A stretch of DNA of 64,000 nt, from the NCBI GenBank assembly GCA_019828595.1, contig JAHQRK010000022.1, positions 186,001 to 250,000 of the forward strand. Direction: 5' to 3'. Each line of letters opens with the position of its first letter. Positions within the stretch are counted from its first letter, which is position 1. Shown piece by piece: positions 1,969-28,946 of the stretch. The position numbers and the translations under genes are program-made. The DNA is from Aphanomyces cochlioides (taxonomy: Eukaryota; Oomycota; Saprolegniomycetes; Saprolegniales; Verrucalvaceae). A model generated the notes under the pieces. That model was not told the origin of the DNA, did not search any database, and saw only the letters and a program-made list of their open reading frames with translations.

Positions 1969-1970
<2 letters not shown>
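1954..1970 (-). promoter_or_regulatory. Element A-1 initiator plus flanking promoter region
   Basis: Read on the minus strand, the tRNA-derived GC is followed by AGTTTCCAATTTGCC. This fits an oomycete Inr with A at +1 and a perfect CAWTTTNYY flanking promoter region. The predicted start is the first base of the element (1968). Confidence 0.55.
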
Positions 1971-2016
<46 letters not shown>

Positions 2017-2041
2017 ACTGGTTCGATCCCGGTTCGTGGCA
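1969..2041 (+). tRNA. tRNA-Phe (GAA), intact
   Basis: This is a 73-nt cloverleaf: acceptor stem GCCGCGA/TCGTGGC with one G-U pair, D stem GCTC/GAGC, anticodon stem TCAGA/TCTGA with loop CTGAAGA (anticodon GAA), and T stem ACTGG/CCGGT. The discriminator base is A, there is no intron and CCA is not encoded. The A box (nt 8-19) and B box (GGTTCGATCC) are intact. The gene lies directly at the 5' end of element A-1, so nt 1-14 are one copy of that element's target-site duplication. The upstream flank is retrotransposon DNA, which internal Pol III promoters may tolerate. Confidence 0.97.
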
Positions 2042-2044
2042 TTG

Positions 2045-2048
2045 TTTT
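2045..2048 (+). terminator. Pol III T-run terminator
   Basis: TTTT begins 4 nt after the last base of the tRNA. Confidence 0.75.
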
Positions 2049-2177
2049 CACCACCACGCCTGCTTTTTCATTCACAACATCGCACCCTTCTTTTACACCA
2101 CGGAGCGCACTTACACGCGCACACACTAACACATTGGACTTGTCCATTTCATTCACAACTCACACACCAACATAACC

Positions 2178-2762
2178 ATGGACTGCACCTTTTACACTGC
2201 CATTCAAATTGCAAAGACAAAACACAGCATCCACGCACAGAATGCGATGCCATACATTCCTCCAAAGTCTCACGCCCAAGCTTGTCTCGCTCCTCTCTCA
2301 ACGATCGAATGAAGCACAACTCATTCTCATGTCTTACTCTCGACAGCACACACAACCAAAATGGCGTCTAAGCAAGACGTTGATGTTTTCAGCGACAATA
2401 CACATTACAAGGCGATGGCTTCCTTCAGGACAGCACACACTTAACAATCATACGCGGAGGAGTTCCATCATGTAGAGGCCATGCATCATATGCTGGACGT
2501 CGTATCGTGTTCTCTTCAAAGAGCTATGAATAGAAAGAACGACCCATCCAATGCATGTGAAAGTTGCACGTAATGTGGAGCAAGCATACGTTGTCCACAC
2601 TGATTCAAGTTCGACGAGGAGAATACTCTATGCTCCAAAAAGTGCTCTTTTGACGACTTCTCGAGGCGAGGGATAATGACCCTCGATTTCTGTCAATATT
2701 CCGATCTCATTCGAATCCCTCCTGTGGATAGTTCTTTCAACCACACATCGTTTGCTTTCTGA
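2178..2762 (+). pseudogene. Degenerate frame with Cys-rich (zinc-finger-like) motif, copy 1
   Basis: One frame runs 194 codons from an ATG in good context to a TGA at 2760, interrupted by stops at 2310 (TGA), 2442 (TAA), 2571 (TAA) and 2601 (TGA). The second half looks protein-like: CxxC, then a stop, CG, five residues, CP, a stop, and then LCSKKC about 13 residues on. This spacing resembles small zinc-binding modules such as MYND-type fingers. Each stop could come from one C-to-T change (CAA to TAA, CGA to TGA). All copies share the stops, so the decay predates duplication. Function is unknown. Other frames are also partly open here, so this may be chance. Confidence 0.35.
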
Positions 2763-3092
2763 GCTACAAGACTCTAGATATTACTGTAGGATGAGTTTTT
2801 ATGTCATTGCTTTAAAGTATATGTCATAGCATGGGAATCGCCAGAAGAAAGGACCATGACGTGGTTAGCGAAGCATGGGCAGACGAGTGTATTCCCTGTG
2901 ATGTGGAAATGAAACGGGATACTTTGTAGTATGGGATGTCAGTTAGTTGACAATGGTGTGTTTGAGTGTGCGTGTTGTTGCATAAGCTGAAGGAGGTAGT
3001 GTTCAGGGTGTATGGGAGGTGTTGTCAGGTGTGTGTATGTGTGTGGAAGAGGACGTGCGAGTGTGTGTGCATGGTCCTATGGAAGCATATAC

Positions 3093-3106
3093 GCCGCGAT
3101 AGCTCA
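3093..3106 (+). repeat. 14-nt tRNA-Phe 5' stub (target-site duplication)
   Basis: GCCGCGATAGCTCA equals tRNA nt 1-14. It follows native spacer DNA (CATATAC), so it marks the original tRNA start before array 2 was inserted. Confidence 0.95.
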
Positions 3107-3122
3107 CTGCAATGGGGAGGTA

Positions 3123-3151
3123 TATTAATAGACTTTCAATATCTACTAATA
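3123..3151 (-). other. tPhe-A 3' UTR hairpin
   Basis: TATTAATAG and CTACTAATA form a 9-bp stem with one pair that is G-U in the element RNA, around an 11-nt loop. The same hairpin is at 10653-10681, 21637-21665, 32311-32339, 39652-39680 and 48118-48146. tPhe-B has a different 9-bp hairpin at the same place, so a role in RT recognition of the RNA 3' end is plausible. Confidence 0.5.
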
Positions 3152-3263
3152 CTAATATTGCCTACTAACGGCTCATCCCACTTCCAAATGCTTCAGCAGA
3201 TTTTCTACTTTGGGCTTTGGAGTACAGCGATTTTTGACTTGTTGAATAAATACTTGGGGCTTG

Positions 3264-5062
3264 TTAATTTGGGGCTGAAGGTTGGAGCGCGAGCAAAGTC
3301 GGGTACGTGGCTACCAGTGGGCGATAGACAGGTTGTCTATGCAAAGTATTGATTGCTGAAATTGCTTCCACTCGTTGAGGGCTGTCAACTTCTTGGAGGC
3401 GAAGCCATCTGCGGATCGATGCATGCCATCGGATGAAGCTGACTTCTTGCCAAATTTCTGGCGGAGGCGGCTCCTTCGATTCGAACTTGGCGGCGTTGTG
3501 CGTTGTCCAAATATAGTGAAGGTTGGAAGCACACAGAAGAGCCCAGAGCACAAACAGTATGTCTTGAAGCTGGCTACCGCGTTCGTTGACTTGAAAGCGG
3601 TCGATGTTGGTGATGGCAGTCCAATCGAAATTGACACCGAAGCATCGCCAAGCGGTCGCGTGAAAACGCCAAAGGGGATACACGCGAGAGCAGGTGTGGA
3701 AGGCGTGGTGTTGGTTCTCCGGTGCGTCTCAATTGGTATAGACACAGCAAATTACGTCTGGCTGCTGAGGTTGCAAGTAGAACAAGCGCGAGTTGACAGG
3801 CAGCATGTTGAACAACAGTCGAAACCAAACGTCGCCATGGAGGGGAGGCGGCCAACGGCATGTTTTGCGGATGAGTCGCACGTAGGTCGCAATATCTTGT
3901 TGCTCGACGCGGGACGATGTCGCCACTGGGTGCGGTTTTCCATCCGAAGGGGCGTGATGCGCCAAACGTGATACGAGTCGCTTGGGCCAACGCTCGAAGG
4001 ATAGCAATTGATCTTTGAAAAGTGCCTTGAAAGGGTGACTTGTTGTATCGATATCGGTGAAAGCAGTTCCAGTTCGAACGCCAGACGTGCGGAGGACTTG
4101 GTCGAATATCTTGGTGAGGTGGCTATAAACTTGACCAGCACGTTCGGGTGCTGCAAATCCCATCGCGCCGTTCGCTTGTAACGTCACTTGTGCCGCACGG
4201 TTGTTGGATGACAGTCGATCAATAAACGCAGCTCTTGTAGGCCATGTCCCTTGCCGTGTCAAGAAGTCTTTGAGGCAGTGGAAACCGTTTTGAGACGCAT
4301 GTCTACACCATCGACGACACAGAGCAGTCTTCACGACATTTGATGTAGCACCCGCAGGACCAACTTGCAGAGCGGGGTAGGATGTCAGCCACACGGGGAG
4401 GTTCAAAAGTTCTTCGAGGCTTGGTGGCGAAGCGGTTCGCTTGGCCATAGGTGTGGCGGCCCATTGATGCCAAATGTCGTGCCAAAGAGGATGCAGCTCC
4501 CACAAAAACAACCACTTGGAGCTGTGGTTGGGGAAGTACGTGAGAAAGTCGAACGGGTGGGTGTCGCGATACAGCTTGTTCATGACACGGGAAAATTGTC
4601 TCTTGACAAGCAACTTCCATGGGGCAAATGTGTTGGGTGAATTGGGCTGCATCAAGAGTTGGAGCCGCAGCAGTCGCTGAGTCCGAAGCTTCGAAGCCAC
4701 ATGCGGAATACCGAGGCCGAGTTTTTGATCGAACTGCCACTTGCGGCAAATAGTTGAGCGATGATGGTCGGTGATTTGCGTCTTCCGACCAAGGATGTAC
4801 TTGTTGACCATTCTTTGCCAAACGGCAACCATCGTTGGAGGCACATACACTGCAGCCGTGACATGCCATAACAACGACAACAACATGGTCGATACGATGA
4901 GTTTGCGGCCTTGGATGGTTCGCGCACTATCGAGATTGTTGTTGAGCGCCAAAGTCATGCACTTGGCAACGTTGAGACGAGCTCCAGACACAGAGCAAAA
5001 GTCTTCGACAATTGCCATTTGCTCGACCGCCGCTTGGAGGGATGACGAGAGTAGAGTCGTGT
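3264..5062 (-). pseudogene. ORF2 C-terminal half (tPhe-A type), broken, in AB-2
   Basis: This matches residues from the end of the RT domain to the C-terminus of tPhe-A ORF2. A TGC-to-TGA change at 3729-3731 replaces a predicted zinc-ligand cysteine (residue 1230 of the intact protein) with a stop. A 156-bp in-frame deletion at 4927/4928 removes 52 codons after the RT motifs, between the NNNLD and RTIQGRK segments. The frame continues rightward only into unrelated tPhe-B sequence, so this copy cannot make ORF2. Confidence 0.9.
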
Positions 5063-5090
5063 ACATGATGACATGTATGGAAGGCATGAT

Positions 5091-5346
5091 GAAACTTGTA
5101 CAGCGACAATTTAGCCGCACAATACATCAGTTATTCCGAGACAGTCACCCATTCGATTTTCTTTCATACTACCCAAATGCAAGCTCCAAGTGGCTTTTGC
5201 TTCGCGAGCTCCATCCACTGTGGCTTGATACTTGGAAACATTGGTCAGCCACAGACATGAGTAAGCGAATCGGCGTGCCTCCAAATCTCGACACGGTACT
5301 GAACCTCCCGGTATGGCTCACAGCCTACGACGCAATGCACTTCGGC
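5091..5346 (+). repeat. Inverted 256-bp segment of tPhe-B ORF2
   Basis: The plus strand here encodes the tPhe-B ORF2 stretch beginning KLVQRQFSR and ending DAMHFG, which is minus-strand coding in B-9 (58031-58286). It sits between tPhe-B sequence in the normal orientation on both sides, and the original breakpoints at 58286 and 58292 are almost flush. The long plus-strand frame across this region is a by-product of the inversion. Confidence 0.88.
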
Positions 5347-8113
5347 ACCAGGATTTCACCAGGAGAATCGGCAGACATAAAGAGCTGTAAACGAAGAAGG
5401 CGTTGTGTTCGCAGCCTCGATGCAATGTGGGGGATTCCCAAGCCTAAAGGCTTGTCGTACTGCCACCTTCTATGGATTGAGGGACGGTAACTCTCATCGA
5501 GCTGGGTCTTGCGGCAAAGTATGAACTTGTTTAACATTTGTTGCCACGTAACGACCATAGCAGGAGGCACAGGTACAACGGCTGTTACATGCCACAACAT
5601 AGATAGCAACATCGTGGAGGCAATAAGCTTTCGGCCCTGCAATGTCCTTGCTCGTTTACCCCATAGTTGAAAGGACGAGATGAATTTGTCGTTGAGTTTT
5701 TGAAGTTGGGAGTCAGCCGAAAGTCGATGGCCAAAGAGAATACCAAGATATTTCGTACACTGACCAGTTGGTACGATATTGAGCAAACCATCTGCTTCGA
5801 TGTCTTCTTGATCGAGATGGTCGTTGAGAACCAAGGTCATGCACTTGGAACGATTCAGACGGGCCCCTGAAGCCGTGCAAAACTCTTCCACAATTGCCAT
5901 TTGCTCCACAGCAGATTGCAGCGAGTTTGATAACAACGTCGAGTCGTCGGCAAAGAATATACTCGTAATAACTGAGTCGTGGGGGAGAGCGATTCCAAGA
6001 TGTGGGGACGCTCGGAGCATCTCACCAAGAGGTTCTAGGTATAGGACGAACAGTAGGCATGATAAAGGACAGCCTTGTTTGACGCCTCGGGTAGGTCGGA
6101 TCTTAGGGCCAAGCTCGCCATTGAAGATGATCTGGACCAAAGGTGAGTCGTACAAAAGAGCTACCCACGCAATGAAACCATCACCAGTGTTGACTTCTCT
6201 CAGCACATCAAGCATGAATTCTCGATCCACCATGTCGTACGCTTTCGAAAAGTCAAGGAATGTTGCATAGTAGTCGTGATCTTCGTTAGTGCAAAACGTT
6301 TGCAAAGTTTGCACAAGCAGGACGTGGTCATGCAGCCGTCGTCCTGGGACAAAGCCAGCTTGACTTGGGTGAATGAGATGAGGAGCTACTGTAGCCAGGC
6401 GATAAGCGAGGGCACGGGATAGTATCTTCACCTCCACTGACATGAGTGCAATAGGTCGGTAGTTTCCAGGATCGCCTCGATCACCAGCTTTGAAGAGCAG
6501 AGCCACAGCACTACGCCTTTGTTGAAGGAGTAGTTTACCGTGGTGGTGAAGTTGGTAGTTGAAGACCCTGACCAGGATTTCGGAGAAAGCCTCGGGTGCT
6601 ACTTGGAAGAAGGCCGCTGGCCATCCATCAGGACCAGGAGACTTGTTTGGACTCATTGTCTTGAGAGCACTACACAGCTCGGCTGCTGTGATAGGTCTGT
6701 CTAGCTCCTCGCGTTGCTCATCATTGAGTTTGCGGGAGATAAACCGTATGACAGCCCTCCGCCTCGCCCGGTTTAGCCGAGGTTGTTCGCCACGAGTGGT
6801 AGTCATTATTGCCTTCCAATGGGCAGTGAATCTCTCTTTGATAGTGGTAGGATCAGACACGGGAATGCCATCGACGTTGACCGTCGTGATAGGAACCTTG
6901 AGTCCTTGTGGCCTTCGAAAGAAGTGGCTCGTACCGCGTTCGTTGACATTTGCATGAAAATCGAATTGCTGATCCATGCGGTATTGGCGATATTCGATTC
7001 TTGCGTTTTCCAGCGCCAACCGAGTAGCATCAACGGCAGCCTCGTCGAGCAAGCCAGCTTTGATCGTTGTGCAGATATATGTCTCAGTTTTAGGCTTTTG
7101 AGCTCGTGTTGCATGGATTGGAGGTGGTGGCGATGACATTGTTGTAAACGTCGTTTGATTCGCTTAAGCCACCCATACCAGACGGCTCCCATGTTTGTCG
7201 ATTCGTCCGCACGCATCTCAGAGAGGAGGTGTGATGCCTCTTCTCGTATGGCTTTGATGACGAGCGGGTCTTTGAGTAGCTCTCTCGGCAGCCTCCAGTA
7301 GCCACGGGTCGTGGGTGTATGACTTGTAGAGAGAACGACAGTGTGCTCCAAGTGATCTCCGGCAAAGCTGTTAGTGGCATATTTTGAGCTTTGGTAGGAT
7401 TGGGCAACTAAATCTTGGTCAATGAACCAGTAGTCCAGACGATTGCTTCGTCCTGGACCGCTTGCCAGTCTTTCGTGAGGGTGGTGTAGGCGCCACGCGT
7501 CGATGACTCCTAGTTGTGACAGCCAGGCAAGACATTCGACTTTTCCAAAGGTGTGATCTTGCCGTGGTTTGGAAGCATCGAGGTGTTCGTTGACAGGAAG
7601 GTTAAAATCTCCCCCAACCAGGTGTACACTGTTAGCTTCAAAAGCGCGAGGGAGACTGTCAAAGAAACTAGCCCGATGTTGAGGGGTAACTGGCGCGTAA
7701 ATGTTGTGGATGTAGACTGGGGTTTCATCCCAGTACGTTTTGATCACAATATAACGGCCAGGGATATCGTGTTGTGATAAGTGCACCAGGCTTGAGAATC
7801 CAGGCATCGATTCGTGAAAGTATGATGCAACGCCACATCGACGGTTGTTCAAATTGTCCGTGCGGGTTGTTCGTAAGTCGTTGGTAAAAAGTTTGTACTT
7901 GCTAACACCCACTTCGTTGTCGAGGTGAGTGTGGAAAGTGTCAAGATGTTTTGCGTTGTTGAGTTTCGTTTCTTGAAAGAGAACAGCTTGTGTCGGTTTC
8001 CGAAGACGCCGTGCAACAAGATGTCCGTTTTCTTTCAGCCCATTGAGGTTGCTCGTCGTCACTTCAAGTATGGGGAGCTTGACAAAATGACCAGCCGCGA
8101 CCACTTTAGCCAC
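5347..8113 (-). pseudogene. ORF2 N-terminal part (tPhe-B type), frameshifted, in AB-2
   Basis: This encodes the APE-type endonuclease (SNLNG, QET, GGDFN, NRLDY, GDH motifs) and the RT domain (NYRPI, FLDFSKAYD, RGVKQGCPLS, FADD). A 4-nt deletion between 7060 and 7061 relative to B-9 shifts the frame between the two domains. The 3' end is lost at the inversion. The RT half is otherwise open and keeps the correct base at the site where B-9 has its own frameshift, so the two copies broke independently. Confidence 0.9.
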
Positions 8114-10571
8114 GGGAAGCGATCGTTGTGAGGTCCGCTAGGTCGCCGTGAATTAAAGTAGGTTCGCTTGGGTGAAACATGACTTGATTGTGGAGAGTGA
8201 TATCCAAATCGTTGCTTTCGTGTAGTTGAAGGATTTTTGTCATGATGTGACACATCGATTCTCCGTCGCCAGTGTACATGAATTCCATTCTGTTCCATAT
8301 GTGGAGGCCAAGGTCGGTGTACATCAGGAGTGACATGAGCGTTTCGGAGGATAGACTGCGTTTACCAAGGCGAGAGGGTAACGCTGTCACTGGACTTTTT
8401 GTTGAGGCCAAAATTGCCGCATCGCTATTGAAATATAGTGGAGCATGAACTGCCATCAATACTTCTGCAATGGCCAGCACTTCTTCGACTTCAACTCTGT
8501 TGAGGACGATGTCATCATCGGTGATGATTGCCTCGATGAGTGGGAGGTTGTTGACCATCTTCTGGTCACTGAACACCGAGATCACGTGGTCGTGAGTGAT
8601 TGGAGTGCCGAATGTTGCCTCGTAGAGCTGACCAAAAGATTTTGTGCCACCACCAGACGCTCTTAGCCAACGATTAAGCAGTCGAAGACGAACAAAGTAT
8701 TCGAAGCTGTCACGATTGGAGACAAAAATTTGGTGCAGTTGCAGTCCAAATTCGATTGGCGCACGTTCTAGATGGATGCAGATCGTGTCAACACGCCCGT
8801 CCGTAATCAATTTCAATAAGTTGAAGGAATCGTGCGCTAACGCTTCCTTAACTTGGGCCGGGATATGTTGTGGTGCGTTTTGAGCCTTGGTGTCAAGGTC
8901 GTTGAGCTCGGCAAGTATGGCATCGAGAGACTTCTCAAACCTTTGGATTGAGCCCTCGTGGGGTTTGATCCCGCTAATGAACTCTTCAGCGGCAACGTGC
9001 ACCTTGTCACCAGATTTGAGTGTCAGCTTTGGAACAATTACTTTGACAGTGGTGTTGCCAACTGTCGTTTCGTGTTCCTCGGGCTCAACATTAGCGCGTT
9101 CGTCCAGAGCCGCAAACATGTTCGGGGAGATCCAAGGACGATCAGGAGCTGGGATTGAGCCAGCGGAGATTGGGGTTTTCTTTCTTTTGCCTGTAGTTTG
9201 AACTTCAGTCCATTCCTTGTTGCTGTCTCGGGTCATTTTCTGCCGTTTGGCAGTGGATGTCGAGACAGCGGCGTCTCCCCGTGGGCGGTGAGGGGTTGCG
9301 TGAAGTCCATGTTGGGTGGCGATTACATCGAGGTCAAGGCGCGCGAGCTTCTTGTCACGGTAAAACCATCCTTGACCAAACACGCGGAGGCACCGACCCT
9401 TGAAAATGAATTCTTCAATTGATCGACCGTCATTGTGCATAGATTCGGGTATAGCTGTCCCTTCAAAATACAAGCGATAACGAGAGCTAGCCAAGCCAGT
9501 CGTCGAGGAAACTGTGGAGTATGAGCCCCACAAAAAGCGCGGCTCAAGCTTTGACATGATGCTGAACATGAGACGTTCTTCATCCTGTCCTTGGAGACCA
9601 GATGGGATATCGATGAAATATCCATCAAGTATATGGGGCTCAGTCATGACAAATCTCTGAGAGCTGCCATCCTTTGCCACTTGGATCTTGAGAGAGACTC
9701 CACGCAGCTTTTTAAGAGCATCTTCAGAGGCTATGCCCCACTTGAGAAGACGATTGGAGACATCTTTCTCGCACTTGATGACATCGACAAATGCATCGTC
9801 CAAATCAAGCGCTTGGTTGTCAAACAATAGAGATGTCATTGCCTTGGAGATGTCGATGTATTTGGTGTATTGGCCAGTGGACATTTGTAGCCAGCCAACA
9901 ACATCTCTGGGGGAATGTTTTTGGATGGGCAAAGTGTCGTCAAACGTGAGAGATCCTGTCGCGCGTTTTTGCAACAAGGACGCCAGCTCGGCCATAGTTG
10001 GTCGATAATGGCCGACGTCACTGTTCCGCTGAGCCTTGGCAGATTTAGCTCTCTGCTTGGCTTGGAATTCCCACACGCATTCGTTTGGCTTTTTGGTCGA
10101 GGTGTTCGATTCGGGTGGTATTGGCATGGAGCGTGTTGTAGCAGGAGGCGAGGCATCGATTTGAGCTTCAGGCTCCATTTCCACATCAACATTGGTGTCG
10201 CGAATCGATTGGTCTTCAGAGCGCGGCTCCAGCTCAGTGGCTTGAGTAATCGGTGGGGTATGTGGTTGGTTGTTGTTGGAGATATCCTCTATGTCTTCAT
10301 CAGGCATCGGAGAAACATTATCCTTGTTGACAGTTTTGTCGCTGGTACGAGCGCTTGGTAATGGCACGCGACCACCGAGTGTAGCAAGACGTATGGGCGG
10401 TTGAGCAGCAGGCGGAGTTTTGTCGATGATTGAGTCAGGTTCATCGTCATCATCATCGTCAACAATCACCTCCATGATACTAGAAGCGTCCGAGGTATTG
10501 CGAAAGGGAGAGGCAGAAAAAGCTGAGGGCTTGTGTGCATGAGCACGGCTGGAAGAGCGGGTAGTCGCCAT
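8106..10571 (-). CDS. tPhe-B ORF1 protein (821 aa) in AB-2
   Basis: This is an intact copy of the tPhe-B ORF1. It starts at the first ATG (MATTRSS) 51 nt from the element's 5' end; the frame continues upstream without another ATG. It has an acidic Asp-rich run near residue 40, then low-complexity Ser/Pro/Thr sequence, then a core alignable by eye with tPhe-A ORF1 (DTLPIQKHS, GWLQM, LEPRFLWGSY, RYRLYFEGT, GRCLRV GQGW), and basic patches (TAKRQK, KRKK) that could be nuclear signals. By position it should be the RNA-binding ORF1 of a LINE, but I recognise no zinc knuckle or certain RRM. It overlaps the ORF2 frame at its 3' end. Confidence 0.85.
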   Translation of the reverse strand: MATTRSSSRAHAHKPSAFSASPFRNTSDASSIMEVIVDDDDDDEPDSIIDKTPPAAQPPIRLATLGGRVPLPSARTSDKTVNKDNVSPMPDEDIEDISNNNQPHTPPITQATELEPRSEDQSIRDTNVDVEMEPEAQIDASPPATTRSMPIPPESNTSTKKPNECVWEFQAKQRAKSAKAQRNSDVGHYRPTMAELASLLQKRATGSLTFDDTLPIQKHSPRDVVGWLQMSTGQYTKYIDISKAMTSLLFDNQALDLDDAFVDVIKCEKDVSNRLLKWGIASEDALKKLRGVSLKIQVAKDGSSQRFVMTEPHILDGYFIDIPSGLQGQDEERLMFSIMSKLEPRFLWGSYSTVSSTTGLASSRYRLYFEGTAIPESMHNDGRSIEEFIFKGRCLRVFGQGWFYRDKKLARLDLDVIATQHGLHATPHRPRGDAAVSTSTAKRQKMTRDSNKEWTEVQTTGKRKKTPISAGSIPAPDRPWISPNMFAALDERANVEPEEHETTVGNTTVKVIVPKLTLKSGDKVHVAAEEFISGIKPHEGSIQRFEKSLDAILAELNDLDTKAQNAPQHIPAQVKEALAHDSFNLLKLITDGRVDTICIHLERAPIEFGLQLHQIFVSNRDSFEYFVRLRLLNRWLRASGGGTKSFGQLYEATFGTPITHDHVISVFSDQKMVNNLPLIEAIITDDDIVLNRVEVEEVLAIAEVLMAVHAPLYFNSDAAILASTKSPVTALPSRLGKRSLSSETLMSLLMYTDLGLHIWNRMEFMYTGDGESMCHIMTKILQLHESNDLDITLHNQVMFHPSEPTLIHGDLADLTTIASRG

Positions 10572-10607
10572 GTTGTCAGTTTTGGACAGTGGTACTGCGG
10601 GGTAGCT

Positions 10608-10624
10608 GGCAAATTGGAAACTGC
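10608..10624 (-). promoter_or_regulatory. Element AB-2 initiator plus flanking promoter region
   Basis: This carries the same Inr and CAATTTGCC as the tPhe-A copies although the body here is tPhe-B. The 35 nt from 10622 leftward are identical between the two families. Confidence 0.55.
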
Positions 10625-10636
10625 CGCGATAGCTCA
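10623..10636 (+). repeat. 14-nt tRNA-Phe stub between AB-2 and A-3
   Basis: GCCGCGATAGCTCA lies directly between the 5' end of AB-2 and the 3' end of A-3. It shows that A-3 inserted into the tRNA copy that AB-2 had rebuilt. Confidence 0.93.
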
Positions 10637-10793
10637 CTGCAATGGGGAGGTATATTAATAGACTTTCAATATCTACTAATACTAATATTGCCTACTAACG
10701 GCTCATCCCACTTCCAAATGCTTCAGCAGATTTTCTACTTTGGGCTTTGGAGTACAGCGATTTTTGACTTGTTGAATAAATACTTGGGGCTTG

Positions 10794-13700
10794 TTAATTT
10801 GGGGCTGAAGGTTGGAGCGCGAGCAAAGTCGGGTACGTGGCTACCAGTGGGCGATAGACAGGTTGTCTATGCAAAGTATTGATTGCTGAAATTGCTTCCA
10901 CTCGTTGAGGGCTGTCAACTTCTTGGAGGCGAAGCCATCTGCGGATCGATGCATGCCATCGGATGAAGCTGACTTCTTGCCAAATTTCTGGCGGAGGCGG
11001 CTCCTTCGATTCGAACTTGGCGGCGTTGTGCGTTGTCCAAATATAGTGAAGGTTGGAAGCACACAGAAGAGCCCAGAGCACAAACAGTATGTCTTGAAGC
11101 TGGCTACCGCGTTCGTTGACTTGAAAGCGGTCGATGTTGGTGATGGCAGTCCAATCGAAATTGACACCGAAGCATCGCCAAGCGGTCGCGTGAAAACGCC
11201 AAAGGGGATACACGCGAGAGCAGGTGTGGAAGGCGTGGTGTTGGTTCTCCGGTGCGTCGCAATTGGTATAGACACAGCAAATTACGTCTGGCTGCTGAGG
11301 TTGCAAGTAGAACAAGCGCGAGTTGACAGGCAGCATGTTGAACAACAGTCGAAACCAAACGTCGCCATGGAGGGGAGGCGGCCAACGGCATGTTTTGCGG
11401 ATGAGTCGCACGTAGGTCGCAATATCTTGTTGCTCGACGCGGGACGATGTCGCCACTGGGTGCGGTTTTCCATCCGAAGGGGCGTGATGCGCCAAACGTG
11501 ATACGAGTCGCTTGGGCCAACGCTCGAAGGATAGCAATTGATCTTTGAAAAGTGCCTTGAAAGGGTGACTTGTTGTATCGATATCGGTCAAAGCAGTTCC
11601 AGTTCGAACGCCAGACGTGCGGAGGACTTGGTCGAATATCTTGGTGAGGTGGCTATAAACTTGACCAGCACGTTCGGGTGCTGCAAATCCCATCGCGCCG
11701 TTCGCTTGTAACGTCACTTGTGCCGCACGGTTGTTGGATGACAGTCGATCAATAAACGCAGCTCTTGTAGGCCATGTCCCTTGCCGTGTCAAGAAGTCTT
11801 TGAGGCAGTGGAAACCGTTTTGAGACGCATGTCTACACCATCGACGACACAGAGCAGTCTTCACGACATTTGATGTAGCACCCGCAGGACCAACTTGCAG
11901 AGCGGGGTAGGATGTCAGCCACACGGGGAGGTTCAAAAGTTCTTCGAGGCTTGGTGGCGAAGCGGTTCGCTTGGCCATAGGTGTGGCGGCCCATTGATGC
12001 CAAATGTCGTGCCAAAGAGGATGCAGCTCCCACAAAAACAACCACTTGGAGCTGTGGTTGGGGAAGTACGTGAGAAAGTCGAACGGGTGGGTGTCGCGAT
12101 ACAGCTTGTTCATGACACGGGAAAATTGTCTCTTGACAAGCAACTTCCATGGGGCAAATGTGTTGGGTGAATTGGGCTGCATCAAGAGTTGGAGCCGCAG
12201 CAGTCGCTGAGTCCGAAGCTTCGAAGCCACATGCGGAATACCGAGGCCGAGTTTTTGATCGAACTGCCACTTGCGGCAAATAGTTGAGCGATGATGGTCG
12301 GTGATTTGCGTCTTCCGACCAAGGATGTACTTGTTGACCATTCTTTGCCAAACGGCAACCATCGTTGGAGGCACATACACTGCAGCCGTGACATGCCATA
12401 ACAACGACAACAACATGGTCGATACGATGAGTTTGCGGCCTTGGATGGTTCGCGCACGACTTCCCCACGTTTGAAACGCAGTCAGAAACTTGTCGTTCAG
12501 TTGCTGGACTTGAAAATCGCGCGGCAGTCGGTGGCCAAAGAGAATACCAAGGTATTTCACTGGCTTCTCGCTCGGCAAGACGTTCAAGAGGCCACCATCG
12601 TCGATGTCTTCGATATCGAGATTGTTGTTGAGCGCCAAAGTCATGCACTTGGCAACGTTGAGACGAGCTCCAGACACAGAGCAAAAGTCTTCGACAATTG
12701 CCATTTGCTCGACCGCCGCTTGGAGGGATGACGAGAGTAGAGTCGTGTCGTCGGCAAAGTAGATGCTCGTCAGTGAGTCTCCATTTGGAAGGGGAATACC
12801 AAAATCAGGAGATCCGCGTAGCATTTCGCCGAGTGGCTCGAGGTAAAGTACGAAGAGCATGCACGATAGGGGGCAACCTTGCTTGACTCCGCGGGTAGGC
12901 CGTATGGTAGGGCCAAGACCGTCGTTGAAAATGATCTGGACCAGAGGCGTATTGTAAAGCAACTGAACCCAAGACACAAATGTGGGACCGATGTTCATCT
13001 CCTTGAGTACGTCGAAGAGAAAGCCTTGGTCAACCATATCGTATGCCTTGGAAAAGTCGAGAAACGTCGCGTAGTAGTCGTGGTCTTCATTGGTACAGAA
13101 AGTCTGCAATGCTTGTACCAGCATCACGTGGTCGTGCAAGCGACGGCCAGGGACAAAACCAGCTTGGCTTGGGTGAGCGAGGTATGGGGCAACTTGTGCA
13201 AGACGGTAGGCCAGCGCCCGCGATAGAATCTTGACTTCAACCGACATGAGAGTAATCGGCCGATAGTTGCCAGGGTCGCCTCTGTCTCCAGCCTTGAACA
13301 AGAGCGCCACTGCACTTCGGCGTTGTTGGAGCAGGAGGTGACCGTGATGGGTGAGTTGGTAGTTGAACACCTTGAGCAGGATTTGGGCGAATACGTCCGG
13401 GGAGATTTGAAAGAAAGCTGCAGGCCAGCCGTCTGAACCAGGAGACTTGTTCGGGTTCATAGACTTGAGCGCACCGCACAGGTCTTCCGCCGTGAGAGGA
13501 CTTTCCAGAGCGTCGCGCTGTTCTTGAGTGAGACGTCGAGTAATGGCTCGAATGATAGCTCGGCGACGGGCCCGATTCAACGGTGGTTGGTCTCTTGGAG
13601 TGACCATGATGTTTTTCCAATGAGACGTAAAACCAGCCTTGACTTCAGACGGGTCAGTCGACGTTACACCGTTGATTGTCACGGACGAGAGCGGCACTTT

Positions 13701-14948
13701 GATCCCCTTGGGTCGACGAAAAAAGTGACTGGTACCTCGCTCGTTGACGTTGGCGTGAAAGTCGAATTGCTGATCCAGGTTGAACTGTCGGTACTCGCTG
13801 CGGGCAGTGTCAAGGGCTTGACGGGCGGTATTAACAATGGATGTCTCAACGAGTCCCATGTCGAATGCTCGGCGGGAAGTAAGCCACTTCATCTTGAGGC
13901 TGTTGAGTGTGTACTTCATCGAGTCAATGTACTGGCGATGACTGACTTGGAGACGCTTCTTCATTCTCTTCAACCAGCCGTACCACTTTGCGCCAAAGTT
14001 TTGAGTGTCGTCTGCGCGCATCTCGTCCAAAAGTTGATTGGCTTCGGCCTTGATCGCTGCGACTACTTGAGGGTTCTTTAAGAGCTCACGGGGGAGGCGC
14101 CAGTAACTTCGGTCGGGAGCTCGCTGCTCGCAGGAGAGGACCACTTTGTGTTCCATGTGGTCGCCTGCAAAGCTGCTTGGGGAATAGCTTGAACGTGCGT
14201 ACGTTTGAGCGACGATATCTTGGTCCACAAACAGGTAGTCGAGGCGGTTGCTTCGACCAGGGCCGCTGTAAACGCGCTCGTTGGGGTGGTGCATCCTCCA
14301 CGCATCGATAACACCAAGTGCTGAAAGCCAGGCAATGCATTCCGCCTTACCAGCGTTGTGGTCTTGGCGAGGTCGAGTCGCGTCCAGATGCTCCTCCAGG
14401 GGTAAGTTGAAATCGCCTCCGACAAAGTGAATGCTGTCGTCTTCAAAGTCGCGAGGCAGATCGTCGAAAAACGGTGCTCGAGAGTGAGCGATAACCGGGG
14501 CATAGACGTTGTGAAAGTACACAGGAACGCCGTCCCACTGAGTTCGAACAACCATGTATCTTCCAGGTCGGTCATCGGTGGTCAAGTGTTGCAGGTCGAG
14601 GAATCCAGGCATGGATCCATGGAAATACGATGCCACACCGCAGCGCCGATTGTTGAGTGAGTCGACGCGATCAGTGCGGAGATCGTTGGTGAAGAGCTTG
14701 TATTTGCCAACGCCTACTTCGTTGTTGAGGTGGAGTTGGAAGGTTTCGAGATGTTTGATGTTATTGATTTTGGTTTCTTGAAAGAAAACGGCTTGGGTCG
14801 GAATTTGGAGTCGCCGCGCCACAAGATGTCCGTTGTCTTTCAGCCCATTGAGGTTGGCAGTGGTCAGTTCGAGTATGGGGAACTTGGTGAAGAGACCGGC
14901 CGCGACCACCTTAGCCACGGAACGCGACAGACGTTGCGTTCGCAACAT
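10794..14948 (-). CDS. tPhe-A ORF2 (APE endonuclease / reverse transcriptase), intact in A-3
   Basis: The full 1,384-codon frame carries all catalytic motifs described under A-8. Small differences include Thr for Lys near the C-terminus (VATYPT) and Asp for His in the LTTDDRPG segment of the endonuclease. ORF2 is open, but ORF1 of the same copy is frameshifted, so A-3 would depend on another copy for ORF1. The start ATG lies 38 nt inside ORF1. Confidence 0.9.
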   Translation of the reverse strand: MLRTQRLSRSVAKVVAAGLFTKFPILELTTANLNGLKDNGHLVARRLQIPTQAVFFQETKINNIKHLETFQLHLNNEVGVGKYKLFTNDLRTDRVDSLNNRRCGVASYFHGSMPGFLDLQHLTTDDRPGRYMVVRTQWDGVPVYFHNVYAPVIAHSRAPFFDDLPRDFEDDSIHFVGGDFNLPLEEHLDATRPRQDHNAGKAECIAWLSALGVIDAWRMHHPNERVYSGPGRSNRLDYLFVDQDIVAQTYARSSYSPSSFAGDHMEHKVVLSCEQRAPDRSYWRLPRELLKNPQVVAAIKAEANQLLDEMRADDTQNFGAKWYGWLKRMKKRLQVSHRQYIDSMKYTLNSLKMKWLTSRRAFDMGLVETSIVNTARQALDTARSEYRQFNLDQQFDFHANVNERGTSHFFRRPKGIKVPLSSVTINGVTSTDPSEVKAGFTSHWKNIMVTPRDQPPLNRARRRAIIRAITRRLTQEQRDALESPLTAEDLCGALKSMNPNKSPGSDGWPAAFFQISPDVFAQILLKVFNYQLTHHGHLLLQQRRSAVALLFKAGDRGDPGNYRPITLMSVEVKILSRALAYRLAQVAPYLAHPSQAGFVPGRRLHDHVMLVQALQTFCTNEDHDYYATFLDFSKAYDMVDQGFLFDVLKEMNIGPTFVSWVQLLYNTPLVQIIFNDGLGPTIRPTRGVKQGCPLSCMLFVLYLEPLGEMLRGSPDFGIPLPNGDSLTSIYFADDTTLLSSSLQAAVEQMAIVEDFCSVSGARLNVAKCMTLALNNNLDIEDIDDGGLLNVLPSEKPVKYLGILFGHRLPRDFQVQQLNDKFLTAFQTWGSRARTIQGRKLIVSTMLLSLLWHVTAAVYVPPTMVAVWQRMVNKYILGRKTQITDHHRSTICRKWQFDQKLGLGIPHVASKLRTQRLLRLQLLMQPNSPNTFAPWKLLVKRQFSRVMNKLYRDTHPFDFLTYFPNHSSKWLFLWELHPLWHDIWHQWAATPMAKRTASPPSLEELLNLPVWLTSYPALQVGPAGATSNVVKTALCRRWCRHASQNGFHCLKDFLTRQGTWPTRAAFIDRLSSNNRAAQVTLQANGAMGFAAPERAGQVYSHLTKIFDQVLRTSGVRTGTALTDIDTTSHPFKALFKDQLLSFERWPKRLVSRLAHHAPSDGKPHPVATSSRVEQQDIATYVRLIRKTCRWPPPLHGDVWFRLLFNMLPVNSRLFYLQPQQPDVICCVYTNCDAPENQHHAFHTCSRVYPLWRFHATAWRCFGVNFDWTAITNIDRFQVNERGSQLQDILFVLWALLCASNLHYIWTTHNAAKFESKEPPPPEIWQEVSFIRWHASIRRWLRLQEVDSPQRVEAISAINTLHRQPVYRPLVATYPTLLALQPSAPN

Positions 14949-17909
14949 CTCCCAGCATGAGTGTCTGAGTGTCGGGTTGGAACATCACTTGGTTGTCGAA
15001 GGTGGGGTCCAGGGAGCCAGCCTCATGGAATTCCAGGATCGTGGTCAAGACGTATCGCGACTTCTCGTCTTCGCCGGCATACAACGTTTCCATGATATTC
15101 CAAATCAAGAGGCCGAAGCTCGTGTCAAGCAATATGGCAGATAGCGATACGCCCGACAAACAGCGGGAGCCCAAATGAGAAGCCAGTGCAGTGACCGGGT
15201 ACTTGGTAGAGGCCACGATCGCAGCATCACTGTTGTAGTACGTTGGAGCATGAATGGCCAAGAGAACTTCTGCCACAGCCAACACTTCTTCCAGGTCGCC
15301 GCGGTGGAGGGAAATCTCGTCGCCGTCAATGGTAGTATCGATGAAGTCGATGTTCTTGAATAGCTCGATGTTGCTGAAGATGGCTTGAACGTGCTCGCGG
15401 GTCATACGCACACCCCACGTCAATGAGTACAGCTGGGAGAACGGTTTGTCTCCACCCCAAGTCGCTCGAAGCCACCGATGGAGGAGGCGTTGTCTCACAA
15501 AGTACTCAAAGCATGCACGGTCTTCATCAAAAAGTCGGTGCAGTTGCAAGCCAAATTCAATCGGGGAACGCTCGAGATGGCTACACAGCATGTCGACGCG
15601 GCCGTCGTTGATGAGTTGGGCAAGGTTGAACGAGCTGTTGGTCACTGCATCTTCGACTTGGGTTGAGAGATGCAATGGAACTTTGGCTGTCTTGGTGTCG
15701 AGGTCTTGTAGTTCGGCGAGAATTTCGTCAAGAGACATTTCTATGCGCTTGGGAACGCCATCTTGGATCTTGGTGCCGCCGACAAATTGACCGGACGTAG
15801 GGAGGTGGGGAGGGTCATCCGAGACGTCCAGCTTGGGTACAATCGTTGAGATCTTGTAATCGCCAAACTGAGCAACGTGTTCCTCGGGGTTGACACACAC
15901 ACGTTCGTCGAGGGCTTCAAACATGTTGGGCGAAATCCAAGAGCGGCCATGCTCGGGGGAATCCACTTGCTGTTGCGTCTTCTTGCGCTTGCCTCTCGAC
16001 GCCTTGACGCCAGTCCACTGCGGAGGGTTGGCTTGCGCAGTTTTCCGACGTTTTGGCGCCTTGGGAGTCGAAGAAGGCGGGTTGGTTGGGCTGGGAGCTG
16101 GCTTGTTCAATCCATATTGGCGGGACGTTGCATCAAGGTCCAAACGAACCAAGTTCTTGTCACGAAAATACCACCCTTGACCGTACACGCGGAGACAACG
16201 GCCCTTGAAAAGAATTTCTTCGACGAGACGGCCGTCGCGCTGTATGGTCGTTGGTACGGAGGTTCCTTCAAAGTAAAGGCGGTACCGAGAGCTCGCCATA
16301 CCGCTTGAAGAGGAAACGTTGGGGTAGGAGCCCCACAGGAAGCGTGGCTCCAACTTGGTCATGACGTCGAAGATCAGGCGCTCTTCGTCTTGATCTTGAA
16401 GGCCTTGAGGGATGTCCATGAAAAATCCGCCGAGGACGTGCGGAACGTTCATCGTGAAGTGTTGGGACGAGCCATCTCGAGCGACTTGAATCTTAAACGC
16501 GATGCCTCGCAGCTTCGTCATCGCTTCGTGAGAGGCAACACCCCACTTGAGCATGCGGTTCGGGATGTCCTTCTCGCATCTCACAATGTCAGCAATCGCA
16601 GTGTCGAGGCCGAGGGCTTGGTTGTCGAAAAGGATCGATGCCATGGCAGCTGAAACATCGATGGTCTTCGTGTGTGCACCCGTGGGCATCTGCAACCAGC
16701 CGACGATGCCGCGCGCCGAGTGCTTCTGGATCGGGAGGGTGTCTTCAAACGTGAGGGTTCCAGCAGCACGCTTGCGAAGGAGGGGTTCGAGTTCCTCCAT
16801 CGTGGGCTGGTAAGGAGCAACGTCCTTGGTCTTGATGGCCTTGGCAGACTGAGACCGCTGTTGCGCTTGGAAGGCCCATACGTCGTTGGGGGCCTGGCGG
16901 TTGTTGGGTTGGCCACGGCCAGGTGTCTGGGCTCCGCCAGATTGAGAAATGTTTTCCAAATGCGATCCGGGTGAAGCCTGAGACGATGGCTGGCGGACTG
17001 AGTGAGAGTCCGAGTCGTGCGTCAGACCAACACTCAAGCGTGCGTCAGAGGCTTGGTCTTGTCCGGACCCTGTCCCATGGTGGACAGAGTCACACGTTTG
17101 ACCTTCACTCGCGTTGGACTTCGAGAAGCTTCCATGGGTGACTTGGTCTTGAGTATTCCCATGACCAACACTGGCCACAGGGTTGTTCGCGATTGTTCCA
17201 GATCTTGCCCGATGATTCTTCGAGAAGAGACCATCACTCATGGAGCGACTAGTCTCGATGGGATCTTGACCTGTCGCCAGAGTGGACTTGTCGCTCGGGG
17301 GATTCTTTGAGAAGGGACCTTCACTCAGGGATGGACTGTTCTCGAATCTTCCTTGACCTGTCGTCATGTTGACGTCGGTGCTTGAGCGAGTCTTCGAGAA
17401 GCCACTATCACTCGTCGAGAGAACATTCTCGAAAGGAACAGAACCCAACGGAGTCTTGCCAGGCAAGCCACCATCACTCACGATGGACGTGGTTGATGGA
17501 GATTCTTCGGGCAAGGTCGTTGACGTCATGAGCACATCTTCCGAGGTTGGAACGCCGTTTGCCAGGCTTCGTCGCAAGTGTCAGAGGTCGTTGGATCATT
17601 CGCGGGATCGCAAGCCTTCGTCGAGCGAGTCACAGGCAAGGGTTCAAAACGGCGCGGTTTCGAAGGGGTTGCACGTTGACGTGGAAACGGAACGCGCGTT
17701 GGAGTAGGGAGCGGATTCGTAGACGCGTCATGATGCGAAGCGTTGGAAGCATCGTCGACGTCCTCTTCCAACGACGACGCCATGTCGGTATCGCTTGGGG
17801 ATGGGTCAGCAACGACGATGACGTCCATATCGCTGGGGCTGGACGCCGAGGGAGAGAACGCGGAGGAGCAAGATGGGGCACGAGGGTTGGTCGAGCGGGT
17901 AGCAACCAT
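14911..17909 (-). pseudogene. tPhe-A ORF1, one-base frameshift, in A-3
   Basis: Near 17557 this copy reads GCCGTTTGCC where the others read GCCGTCTTGCC. The single-base loss breaks the frame after about 117 codons from the ATG at 17909. The remaining 888-codon downstream part is open. It carries the GQG version of the repeat region rather than the CQG version of A-1, A-7 and A-8. Confidence 0.93.
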
Positions 17910-17946
17910 ATTGTCAGATAGCGTAGAGTGGTACTGCGGGGTAGCT

Positions 17947-17963
17947 GGCAAATTGGAAACTGC
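17947..17963 (-). promoter_or_regulatory. Element A-3 initiator plus flanking promoter region
   Basis: This motif has the same sequence as at 1954-1970; the predicted +1 is 17961. Confidence 0.5.
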
Positions 17964-17975
17964 CGCGATAGCTCA
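17962..17975 (+). repeat. 14-nt tRNA-Phe stub between A-3 and B-4
   Basis: GCCGCGATAGCTCA is preceded by T, the last base of A-3. The matching duplication on the other side of B-4 is 15 nt and includes this T. Confidence 0.93.
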
Positions 17976-17993
17976 ATGTCAATGGGGAGTCTA

Positions 17994-18017
17994 TTTGTAG
18001 TTAATGTAAACTACAAA
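17994..18017 (-). other. tPhe-B 3' UTR hairpin (copy B-4)
   Basis: TTTGTAGTT and AACTACAAA form a perfect 9-bp stem with a 6-nt loop, 18 nt from the element's 3' terminus. Confidence 0.55.
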
Positions 18018-18053
18018 CTAATATTGCCCGAAGGCTCATCCCATTTCCAACTG

Positions 18054-19268
18054 CTAGGCTGAATTGGAAATCAATTTGGCTTTTCGTTTTCTTGATTCGC
18101 TTCGACGTTGGGACTTCGATTTCTTCGGTGTTTGTAAGCTAACACGGCGAATATGTCGGATAAAACTGACTCTTGGCATCTGACCCAGGGGGTATACATT
18201 TTCATTGTCTTGGATCATACATAGACTTCGGTCTATGCAGCGCTTGTATCGCTTGGCGAGGACCCAGCAATGGGATGTTGAATCAGTGACAGAAACAACC
18301 AAGAATTCTCCGTCAGGCTCATCCAATATCGCTCTACAGATATCACGAATTGGATCACCCACCGATTGCTTGAGCAGTTGACGGGAGAATATGGCGTCGT
18401 TGTAGTGGAATCCATGTGTGTATGCCAGCTTGAGAAAATCATGCATCTTGGAAGGGGGAATGCCCGCGTCTTGAGGAACTCCATGGGCCTCTTTGAAACC
18501 CGAAATGACTTCTTCGCTGAGCTCAAAATTGGAGACATTCAAATTGGTAGCAACGATTCGGATTGCAGCCGCAAGACAAGATTTGTCACTGTTGTTGCCA
18601 ATTTCTAGCCACAGAGGATCCATCGCTCGAAATTCAGCAAGCGTTGGGGCGAGACCAGTGTTCGTGAGGAAGTGGGCTCCAGCTTGTCGCCATCGTTGGT
18701 ACATCGCCACGGCTTCTTGACACCCGCTGAGGTCTTTTTCGTCGAACCAGTCTTTGTCGAGTCCATCCGGGCGTTGAAACTTCCAGTTGACTTGGTATTG
18801 AATAGTTGAAATTCGATTTCGCATTGATGCCACTTCGCGGTGGTCATCGATAAACAACACTTCATCGATGTCATCATCGTCGGTTGGAATTCGCAGAGTG
18901 CGTGGGCGGTTGGTTGGGGCATCAGCCGTTGTCGCATTCGTTTGTGGCCTGGCTGGAACAGAAACATCGTCCAATAGATCCATGAGGGATGGTAGCGGAG
19001 ATCCATTGTCATTGCCCAAGGGGTCAAATTCGCGGGTGCTCGAGTTCAAAATGGACATATCAGGAGTAAATTGGTGTTCTTCAGTTGTAACTGGACTTGA
19101 AGGACGAGTGTCGGATGATTGCGTCATAGGTACAGAAATCTCAACTCCATCCACTCCCTCAAGAGTAATCCCTGGAGACATCGAGCTCCCCACACCTCGT
19201 GTAGTTATGGGTCTCGACGTCTGCGCGGGGAGTACGCTATCGGCAGTGAAAATCGTTGAAGCTTCCAT
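18054..19268 (-). CDS. tPhe-B ORF3: chromodomain-like plus cysteine-protease-like protein (404 aa), copy B-4
   Basis: The protein is the same as in B-9, where the domains are described. It starts here at the first ATG (MEASTIF, 19268). The frame continues to a TTG at 19430 in the expanded A-run but has no earlier ATG. Because this copy lost its promoter and ORF1, expression would need outside transcription. The frame is still open, which fits a recent insertion. Confidence 0.8.
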   Translation of the reverse strand: MEASTIFTADSVLPAQTSRPITTRGVGSSMSPGITLEGVDGVEISVPMTQSSDTRPSSPVTTEEHQFTPDMSILNSSTREFDPLGNDNGSPLPSLMDLLDDVSVPARPQTNATTADAPTNRPRTLRIPTDDDDIDEVLFIDDHREVASMRNRISTIQYQVNWKFQRPDGLDKDWFDEKDLSGCQEAVAMYQRWRQAGAHFLTNTGLAPTLAEFRAMDPLWLEIGNNSDKSCLAAAIRIVATNLNVSNFELSEEVISGFKEAHGVPQDAGIPPSKMHDFLKLAYTHGFHYNDAIFSRQLLKQSVGDPIRDICRAILDEPDGEFLVVSVTDSTSHCWVLAKRYKRCIDRSLCMIQDNENVYPLGQMPRVSFIRHIRRVSLQTPKKSKSQRRSESRKRKAKLISNSA

Positions 19269-19495
19269 TGTTGTTGTCTTGGGTAAAATCAAAAGTGAGT
19301 CTTGGAGAATTGTTTTGAGATTCTCACTGAACTTATTCTCAGTTGCGACACTTGAGTCAGGCACGATTTGATTGGGCAGTGAAATGTTTTGCGCGGATCG
19401 TGAGTGATGGTCGCCAGGATTCCCAATCAAAAAAAAAAAAAAAAAAATTCAGCTGGGATACCAAGTCAAGAATACAGCTGGGGCTTGTAATCAAA

Positions 19496-20480
19496 TTACT
19501 GGTGTTCAACTCGAAAAGACATGGGATATTTTTCGAATAGCTCGTTGTATCCAGCTTGAGAGAAAAGGACTGAGACCGCTTCGATGATGTTTCGATAGTC
19601 GAAGTCGTCAGGCGAGAGCAAACGAATTGTTCGCCTGATGGAAGCTGTCCAACTGACAAATATAATCTCGTTCCATAGTAAAATCGGTAGAGGCCTTTTG
19701 CCATCGAACTTGGTTGCATTTCTTTGAGTCCATAAGGAGTACGTGATGGAAGCACAAAGGAGGGACCATAATTTGAATAATGCGTCATGCAGGTGTTTTC
19801 CTCGCGTATTGGTCTTGAAGCGACTGATATTCGTGGTGGTTGCCCAATCAAACTTAACACCATAAGCTCTCCATGCTCGCTCTTGGAACATCCAAACTTG
19901 ATGTACATGATGACATGTATGGAAGGCATGATGAAAAGTCTCAACATCCGAGCAATCTTCATAGACACAACAAATAGCGTCAGGGTTTTGGATCTGCATA
20001 TAGGAAAACCTCGAGTTGACGGGTAACATCTTCATGTGCAATCGAAACCATACATCGCCTTGAACAGGTGGAGGTAGATTACACACAGTACGAATGAGAC
20101 GGATATACTTTGCTATGTCTTTGTCAGTTCTTGTCGTAGTCTTCATAGGATGTATAGCTTCAGTCTGGGGGGCGTGGTAAGCTAAATGCACCACGTTTTT
20201 CTTGGGCCACGACTCGAAAGGTAAATCAGCATCCTTGATTCTGGCTGTAAACGGATGTTGACAAGTCGGGACATTAGGCAGTGGCGACCCTTGCCGAATG
20301 TCAAACGATCGAACAACTTTGTCGAAGATTCGTGTGAGTTGATTGTAAATGTCGGTTGTGCGGGGCAATGTGGCAAAGTCCATGACTCCGTCCTGGTTTA
20401 GACAAACTTGGGCAGCTGGATTGTTCGACGACATTCGGTTCACGAACATGGTCTCTGTTGGCCAAGCGCCATGTGGGGTC
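19496..20480 (-). pseudogene. tPhe-B ORF2 C-terminal fragment in B-4
   Basis: About 328 codons of ORF2 C-terminus, including the zinc-binding region (CCVYEDC, then HHAFHTC), end at the stop at 19496. The endonuclease and RT are missing. An apparent ATG at 20482 is created only by the junction with the tRNA and is not a real start. Confidence 0.9.
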
Positions 20481-20482
20481 AT

Positions 20483-20530
<48 letters not shown>

Positions 20531-20555
20531 ACTGGTTCGATCCCGGTTCGTGGCA
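20483..20555 (+). tRNA. tRNA-Phe (GAA), intact
   Basis: The sequence is identical to the gene at 1969-2041. It was rebuilt by the duplication made by B-4; the base before it (T, 20482) belongs to a 15-nt duplication. Stems, GAA anticodon and A and B boxes are complete. Confidence 0.97.
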
Positions 20556-21606: not shown

Positions 21607-21620
21607 GCCGCGATAGCTCA
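21607..21620 (+). repeat. 14-nt tRNA-Phe 5' stub before A-5
   Basis: GCCGCGATAGCTCA is preceded by the native spacer end CATATAC. Confidence 0.95.
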
Positions 21621-28931: not shown

Positions 28932-28946
28932 GGCAAATTGGAAACT

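Follow-up and report, generated by a model that had tools for sequence, protein, structure and literature searches.

Antisense LINE insertions at a fixed A-box position rebuild tRNA genes in Aphanomyces cochlioides

A tRNA-Phe array and its LINE insertions

The window, by which we mean the whole 64,000-nt stretch of DNA analysed, is C15:186001-250000 of the 76.2-Mb, 94-contig assembly of Aphanomyces cochlioides. It contains tRNA-Phe genes, a repeated spacer, and long antisense elements linked via 14-nt stubs, GCCGCGATAGCTCA, which are nt 1-14 of tRNA-Phe. The 14-mer occurs 13 times, always exactly in a search tolerating one mismatch, where shuffles gave an expectation of 0.02. An element 3′ end directly follows nine of the 13 copies (six CTGCAATGGGG, three ATGTCAATGGGG), and an element 5′ end directly precedes nine, one of which (20483) is the end of a truncated copy. 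Exact 73-nt tRNA-Phe genes lie at 1969, 20483 and 46964. A fourth rebuilt gene (28947) is interrupted after nt 47 by a 2194-bp insert. The interval that first drew attention, 1969-3106, consists of a rebuilt tRNA and the 1051-bp spacer of the array, followed by the next unit's stub, with elements to its left (to 1968) and right (from 3107). The features of the window are:

1-1968 (−): 5′ part of a family A LINE whose remainder lies beyond the window edge; its 5′ end abuts tRNA nt 1
1969-2041 (+): rebuilt exact 73-nt tRNA-Phe (GAA)
2042-3092 (+): spacer of the 1124-bp tRNA-Phe tandem unit
2759-2766 (−): TAGCTCAG in the spacer, outside the tRNA; internal control site
3093-3106 (+): 14-nt stub, tRNA-Phe nt 1-14
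3107-10622 (−): chimeric insertion of an A 3′ part, an inverted 256-bp B piece and a B 5′ part; duplication intact
10623-10636 (+): stub, tRNA-Phe nt 1-14
10637-17961 (−): full-length family A LINE
17962-17975 (+): stub, tRNA-Phe nt 1-14
17976-20482 (−): 5′-truncated family B LINE; duplication intact
20483-20555 (+): rebuilt exact tRNA-Phe
21607-21620 (+): stub, tRNA-Phe nt 1-14
21621-28946 (−): full-length family A LINE
28947-28993 (+): rebuilt tRNA-Phe nt 1-47, interrupted
28994-31187 (no strand assigned): 2194-bp insertion behind nt 47 with CTGAAGATCTGAAGGT on both sides; its ends match none of A, B and C
32281-32294 (+): stub, tRNA-Phe nt 1-14
32295-39621 (−): full-length family A LINE
39622-39635 (+): stub, tRNA-Phe nt 1-14
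39636-46963 (−): full-length family A LINE
46964-47036 (+): rebuilt exact tRNA-Phe
48088-48101 (+): stub, tRNA-Phe nt 1-14
48102-55427 (−): full-length family A LINE, both ORFs open
48259-52413 (−): family A ORF2, 1384 aa, predicted APE endonuclease and reverse transcriptase
52376-55417 (−): family A ORF1, 1013 aa, without Pfam match
55428-55441 (+): stub, tRNA-Phe nt 1-14
55442-63571 (−): full-length family B LINE, ORF2 frame broken
55520-56896 (−): extra 3′ ORF of family B, 458 aa, without Pfam match
63572-63585 (+): stub, tRNA-Phe nt 1-14
63586-64000 (−): 3′ end of the following family B LINE, which runs on past the window edge

We extended the analysis to C15:1-260000 by adding stretches of 190 kb and 10 kb to the window. 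The array in this region comprises 44 tRNA-Phe units, mostly of 1124 bp. Twenty-four units are empty (one with a 1-nt change) and 20 are filled, with 37 LINE insertions among them, so that the pre-insertion site can be seen on the same contig as empty units at 1124 bp spacing. Filled units hold chains of one to four elements. Fifteen of the 19 complete chains terminate in an exact tRNA-Phe; the other four terminate in a tRNA-Phe disrupted after nt 47 by other inserts. Rebuilt genes are thus not permanently protected, a correction to the original prediction that rebuilding would avoid harm. Tandem tRNA arrays are already known in oomycetes, from Phytophthora infestans (accessible part of PMC9584435). 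Since such arrays recombine and may be misassembled, insertions within them are not all independent events.

Every one of the 37 elements lies antisense and directly after tRNA nt 14, with nt 1-14 duplicated at its 5′ side. This bears out, across C15:1-260000, the predicted insertion between nt 14 and 15 and the predicted duplication with the rebuilt gene on the 5′ side of the element. On the tRNA sense strand, 3′ ends follow GCCGCGATAGCTCA in all 17 family A, all 19 family B and the single family C element, and no element 3′ end was found on the opposite strand of this region. The same 14-mer follows all 21 full-length A/B-type 5′ ends, once behind an extra C. For 36 elements, truncated ones included, the next copy of the 14-mer lies within one element length; for the 37th, at the edge of the region, it lies at C15:266182.

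About ten different truncation points occur within C15:1-260000. Four B copies have one truncation point in common (4523-4539-bp units), and three of these four precede a tRNA with the same poly-T/poly-A insert, which indicates that duplication within arrays does occur. One joint is odd: at C15:71800-71841, the rebuilt gene is separated from a truncated A copy by a short partial second copy of tRNA-Phe (nt 1-20).

Two different inserts were seen after nt 47 of rebuilt tRNA-Phe, both with the same 16-bp duplication, CTGAAGATCTGAAGGT. The first (window 28994-31187) is 2194 bp long, and its longest ORF has no Pfam match. The second is the poly-T/poly-A insert, found in three related units (C15:45799, 79736 and 104383). 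These inserts may represent a second site-specific element in tRNA-Phe.

Target genes across the genome

Searching the genome for element 3′ ends with at most two mismatches gave 226 for family A and 204 for family B, 430 in total. The exact word TAGCTCA adjoined the 3′ end in 338 cases and TGGCTCA in 82, of which 81 were on contig C78. About 420 of the 430 A/B 3′ ends therefore lie directly after TRGCTCA, which is tRNA nt 8-14 in the A box; the figure is approximate, since an exact pattern is set against one allowing two mismatches, and about 10 ends are unexplained by the TRGCTCA patterns. Among A/B ends sampled outside the window array from these roughly 430, TRGCTCA stood immediately before the joint in 20/20. 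The genome-wide tabulation of 3′ termini and adjoining bases that had been proposed as a check came out in favour of the original prediction: unrelated sites are not the majority.

Of 172 full-length 5′ ends genome-wide, 142 are followed by TAGCTCA (3 in the reversed-pattern control) and 24 by TGGCTCA on C78, the latter count omitting one C21 row that is likely a chance match. Among 100 listed TAGCTCA 5′ joints, 60 have no extra base before nt 1 and 40 have 1-6 bases (one base in 22, two in 8, three in 7, four in 2 and six in 1). Twelve of the 24 C78 joints are without an extra base, and two C78 joints have A instead of G at nt 1. The joint is thus not always exact, which corrects the original claim of exact rebuilding.

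In 15 copies at other tRNAs for which both ends were fetched, nt 1-14 were rebuilt at the 5′ side in all 15; seven had clean 14-15-bp duplications and eight carried 1-6 extra bases. Beyond the rebuilt nt 1-14, tRNA sequence continued in 13 copies and a further element began in two. Eight rebuilt genes were scored complete by ARAGORN or Rfam, excluding L054, for which the ARAGORN call is a 90-nt gene. The bases of L058 equal those of L057, a locus of the intron-bearing tRNA-Tyr that Rfam scored as a tRNA. Four rebuilt genes (L049, L050, L054 and L066) appear damaged or incomplete further downstream.

The targets that could be named are tRNA-Phe, Tyr (GTA, with intron), Lys-TTT, Lys-CTT, Asn, Ala-AGC, Ala-CGC and Met, all used at the same position. 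The Tyr anticodon was read by eye, the intron-bearing gene having been missed by ARAGORN in bacterial mode. The Met target lies on C78 in 1053-bp units; after A/B 5′ ends it was read for nt 1-15 only (e.g., C78:1901326), and the complete Met gene (L078) adjoins a C-like 5′ end. Target stubs without a tRNA name include GGGAAATTGGCTCA and GCCCCTATAGCTCA. We considered the GGGAAATTGGCTCA site at C15:1207552 as an off-target insertion and rejected this, because the same stub is used by family C on contig C5.

Family C, represented in the array by the element at C15:141609-150289, encodes an ORF2 38.5% identical to that of A and shares the A-box insertion point with A/B. Its 83 genomic 3′ ends follow (A/G)GCTCAG in 70 cases, AGCTTAG in 4, AGCGCAG in 2 and AGGTCAG in 1, with 6 unmatched, so that 6-7 of the 83 are unexplained by site patterns. 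The idea of tRNA-Phe as the target thus holds in the C15 array; elsewhere the target widens, the three element families inserting at the A boxes of many tRNA genes.

In C15:1-260000, full-length A copies differ by 0-0.26% (n = 11) and full-length B copies by 0.02-0.22% (n = 9), truncated and chimeric copies left out of both figures. Both ORFs are open in 6 of the 11 A copies. From this closeness and the open frames, recent activity of family A is probable, subject to the homogenisation that arrays undergo. The same closeness, the near homogeneity of the arrays and the four co-truncated B copies, three with the same tRNA insert, could also be read to mean that most copies are not site insertions and stem from a few composite units (stub, element and tRNA) multiplied by unequal exchange and gene conversion. 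We think this very improbable: the identical joint recurs on many contigs in tRNA genes unrelated to one another, C15:1-260000 by itself has three element families and about ten truncation points, and the first joint in each tRNA family cannot come from exchange.

Element families and their proteins

The 5′ and 3′ ends of the elements are unlike, with no terminal repeats, and truncated copies carry target-site duplications, as expected of LINEs. The reverse transcriptase (RT) of family A ORF2 matches Pfam RVT_1 (E 3.4e-34), with the FADD catalytic motif in the alignment, and its best PDB match by sequence is L1 ORF2p (E 7e-57). Pfam matches to an endonuclease are weak: family A scores E 0.02 and family B E 4e-4, neither reaching the curated cut-off. 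However, the structural model of the family A ORF2 endonuclease (pLDDT 87) has the human L1 endonuclease as its best match (E 1e-15), and residues E58, D179, N181, D237, D263 and H264 are invariant across 22 alignment rows. On this modelling, the N-terminal domain of ORF2 is an APE-type endonuclease. No Pfam match to a restriction-like endonuclease was found in ORF2, and ORF1 of family A gave no Pfam match at all. Bearing on membership of an L1/Tx1-type clade are L1 as the closest solved RT relative and a weak, below-cut-off zf-RVT match in B; the RT tree contained no clade references.

The two family A ORFs share 38 nt (window 52376-52413), an overlap that suggests coupled translation or frameshifting. 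The 458-aa ORF of family B has three homologs, two in A. cochlioides and one in a JGI metagenome sequence. Relatives with flanking DNA were not found in viral contigs; in genome contigs there were two distant matches, from mollusc symbiont genomes, at 25-26% identity.

This coding content bears on another possible source of the insertions, a cut-and-paste DNA transposon like Dada. According to the accessible text of PMC3706591, the target of Perkinsus Dada transposons is TAGCTC in the A box of tRNA genes. However, the Dada duplication is 6 bp (TAGCTC) and that seen here is 14-15 bp, and the 5′-truncated copies, a U6 chimera (described below) and the encoded reverse transcriptase and APE endonuclease do not belong to such an element. 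We regard a Dada-like origin as refuted by the coding content and truncations, and its chance of being correct as negligible.

The RT tree was built from 57 rows; six candidates were dropped for short RT matches, and sequences under 900 aa were not entered. Families A and B fall in one clade with Aphanomyces astaci and metagenome sequences. Family C pairs with P0047 (98/92), and this pair joins a Globisporangium-containing group at 92/82, which is not a strong fork, C being a long branch. A set of 47 rows that includes A, B and C is split from the other 10 at 100/100. The tree is compatible both with an old A-box habit and with one that arose twice. By eye, the first 22 or so bases are alike in the 5′ ends of A/B and C (AGTTTCCAATTTGCCAGCTACC and ACTTTTACTTTTGCCGTCAACC), possibly a shared promoter or initiation signal.

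Insertion mechanism, site choice and known systems

The fixed site, orientation, duplication, rebuilding, truncations and chains, seen in several tRNA families and with three element families, are very probably the work of site-specific APE-type LINEs that nick the tRNA A box, insert by target-primed reverse transcription, and rebuild the gene when fill-in duplicates nt 1-14. The endonuclease would nick the sense strand of the tRNA gene after nt 14, within the A box (TRGCTCA/G), and the freed 3′ end would prime reverse transcription of the element RNA. The other strand would then be cut opposite nt 1, usually 14 bp off and sometimes 15. Fill-in would copy nt 1-14, leaving the stub at the element 3′ end and restoring at the element 5′ end a complete tRNA gene that includes the internal promoter (A and B box). 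Because the rebuilt gene would again be a target, chains could extend head-to-tail between the last element and the tRNA. We infer the order of the nicks and the use of the primer from the joint itself: past nt 14 the tRNA sense strand runs on into the antisense strand of the element, and the nick at that point therefore most likely primes the first strand.

On contig C1 (L075, G000:C1:3433900-3434460), a complete U6 snRNA (Rfam positions 1-105 of 105) is joined to a truncated A copy at the 5′ side of the latter and has a complete tRNA-Lys-TTT on its other side. U6-L1 chimeras occur in mammals. Read from its sequence, the U6-LINE chimera is the mark of a template-switching RT, and together with the truncated copies that carry duplications it supports target-primed reverse transcription. 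The chimeric insertion at window 3107-10622 may have a template-switch-like origin or be due to recombination.

The spacer provides an internal control for what sets the site. It contributes 43 copies of the word TAGCTCAG in C15:1-260000, and none has an A, B or C 3′ end, while the A boxes of the same array account for 37 elements and 44 sites now uninserted (p 4e-9, in a test that treats copies as independent, which array copies are not). Genome-wide, TAGCTCAG occurs 2523 times, fewer than a reversed control word (3988). We rejected TAGCTCAG alone as the target on account of the 43 uninserted spacer copies, which imply that the site needs something more. The site may extend further through the A box and D arm, or it may depend on the Pol III complex.

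If the Pol III machinery picks the site, a tRNA gene bound by TFIIIC/TFIIIB would recruit the element protein and set the nick; this departs from the explanation above only in how the site is found. All nameable targets are tRNA genes, of several families with unlike acceptor stems, and insertions are at A boxes (37) and not at the 43 spacer words, as such recruitment would have it. Dictyostelid elements also target tRNA genes, although according to the accessible part of PMC5006619 they land outside the gene, some over a range such as 2-6 or 13-16 bp, and here the 3′ joint is fixed to the base. Moreover, the A-box 7-mer at the joint is nearly invariant in A/B, and the spacer words diverge from the tRNAs past TAGCTCAG, so that a longer DNA site would explain the control equally well. 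We consider recruitment by Pol III factors possible but clearly the less likely of the two, and favour direct recognition of A-box and D-arm DNA, because the insertion position is fixed to the base.

A broader reading, which we offer tentatively and do not expect to hold in full, is that an old, oomycete-wide LINE lineage recognises the Pol III A box in tRNA genes generally. With a stagger of about 14 bp, matching the span between the nick and the 5′ end of the tRNA, every insertion would heal its target, and the rebuilt tRNA would also serve the element, for example as a divergent promoter. Full-length elements have their first ATG some 50-60 bp away from the rebuilt tRNA gene that they adjoin. 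If this reading is true, the habit would date from near the root of the clade, because A/B and C, which are apart in the RT tree, share the target.

These LINEs clearly exemplify a parasite that, through the geometry of its cuts, repairs the gene into which it inserts. Most of the cost that normally comes with landing in an essential gene family may thereby fall away, and the target stays available; we infer that insertion is nearly harmless to the host. The rebuilt genes may nevertheless be silent, their upstream flank being replaced. Our results predict a LINE endonuclease with a long, conserved natural site in tRNA genes that have an A box of this kind. They also offer natural experiments on tRNA gene function under a replaced upstream flank and on the co-evolution of tRNA arrays and retrotransposons.

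Among known LINEs, human L1 is the nearest solved relative of both the endonuclease and the RT (PDB). L1 is not known to have a fixed gene target. R1 is an APE-type LINE with a fixed 28S rDNA site in insects; it makes a 14-bp target duplication and interrupts the gene unit. It differs in its 28S rDNA target from the elements described here, which adjoin an A-box word at about 420 of 430 A/B 3′ ends. The NeSL-related elements are a restriction-like-endonuclease group, and the R2/NeSL/Utopia/LIN group as a whole differs by that enzyme from our elements, with their N-terminal APE domain.

LINEs in tRNA genes are not new in themselves, which corrects the original prediction. LIN15_SM and LIN25_SM, planarian non-LTR retrotransposons of the R5/LIN lineage, are said to be specific for tRNA-Arg and tRNA-Glu genes (PMC4640811). 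They are named with one tRNA type each and are placed in a NeSL-related tree, unlike the APE-type, many-tRNA elements of A. cochlioides, and the accessible part of PMC4640811 does not describe rebuilding of the gene. The same source, as far as it is accessible, gives Utopia as oomycete LINEs in arrays of multicopy small-RNA genes, but with a restriction-like endonuclease and a U2 snRNA target, leaving disrupted U2 genes without their 5′ 38 bp. That some non-LTR elements target tRNA genes is stated in general terms in the available text of PMC8869645. The dictyostelid non-LTR elements TRE5, TRE3 and NLTR-A/B target tRNA genes too and, as the original prediction correctly had it for TRE, insert beside them, upstream or downstream (PMC5006619, accessible part), whereas the 3′ joint here is at nt 14/15. 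Dada elements do enter tRNA genes, several at A-box nt 8-13 (TAGCTC), but they have a DDE transposase and a 6-bp duplication, and each Perkinsus family is bound to its own tRNA genes (accessible parts of PMC3706591 and PMC8869645). In the literature searched, mostly outside subscription journals, we found no description of an APE LINE that inserts at the A box in many tRNA families and rebuilds the gene it enters. LINEs in tRNA-Arg and tRNA-Glu genes, A-box DNA transposons and dictyostelid elements beside tRNA genes are thus already known; the apparently new feature, within that literature, is that a single lineage of APE LINEs works through the A box across many tRNA families and leaves the gene restored.
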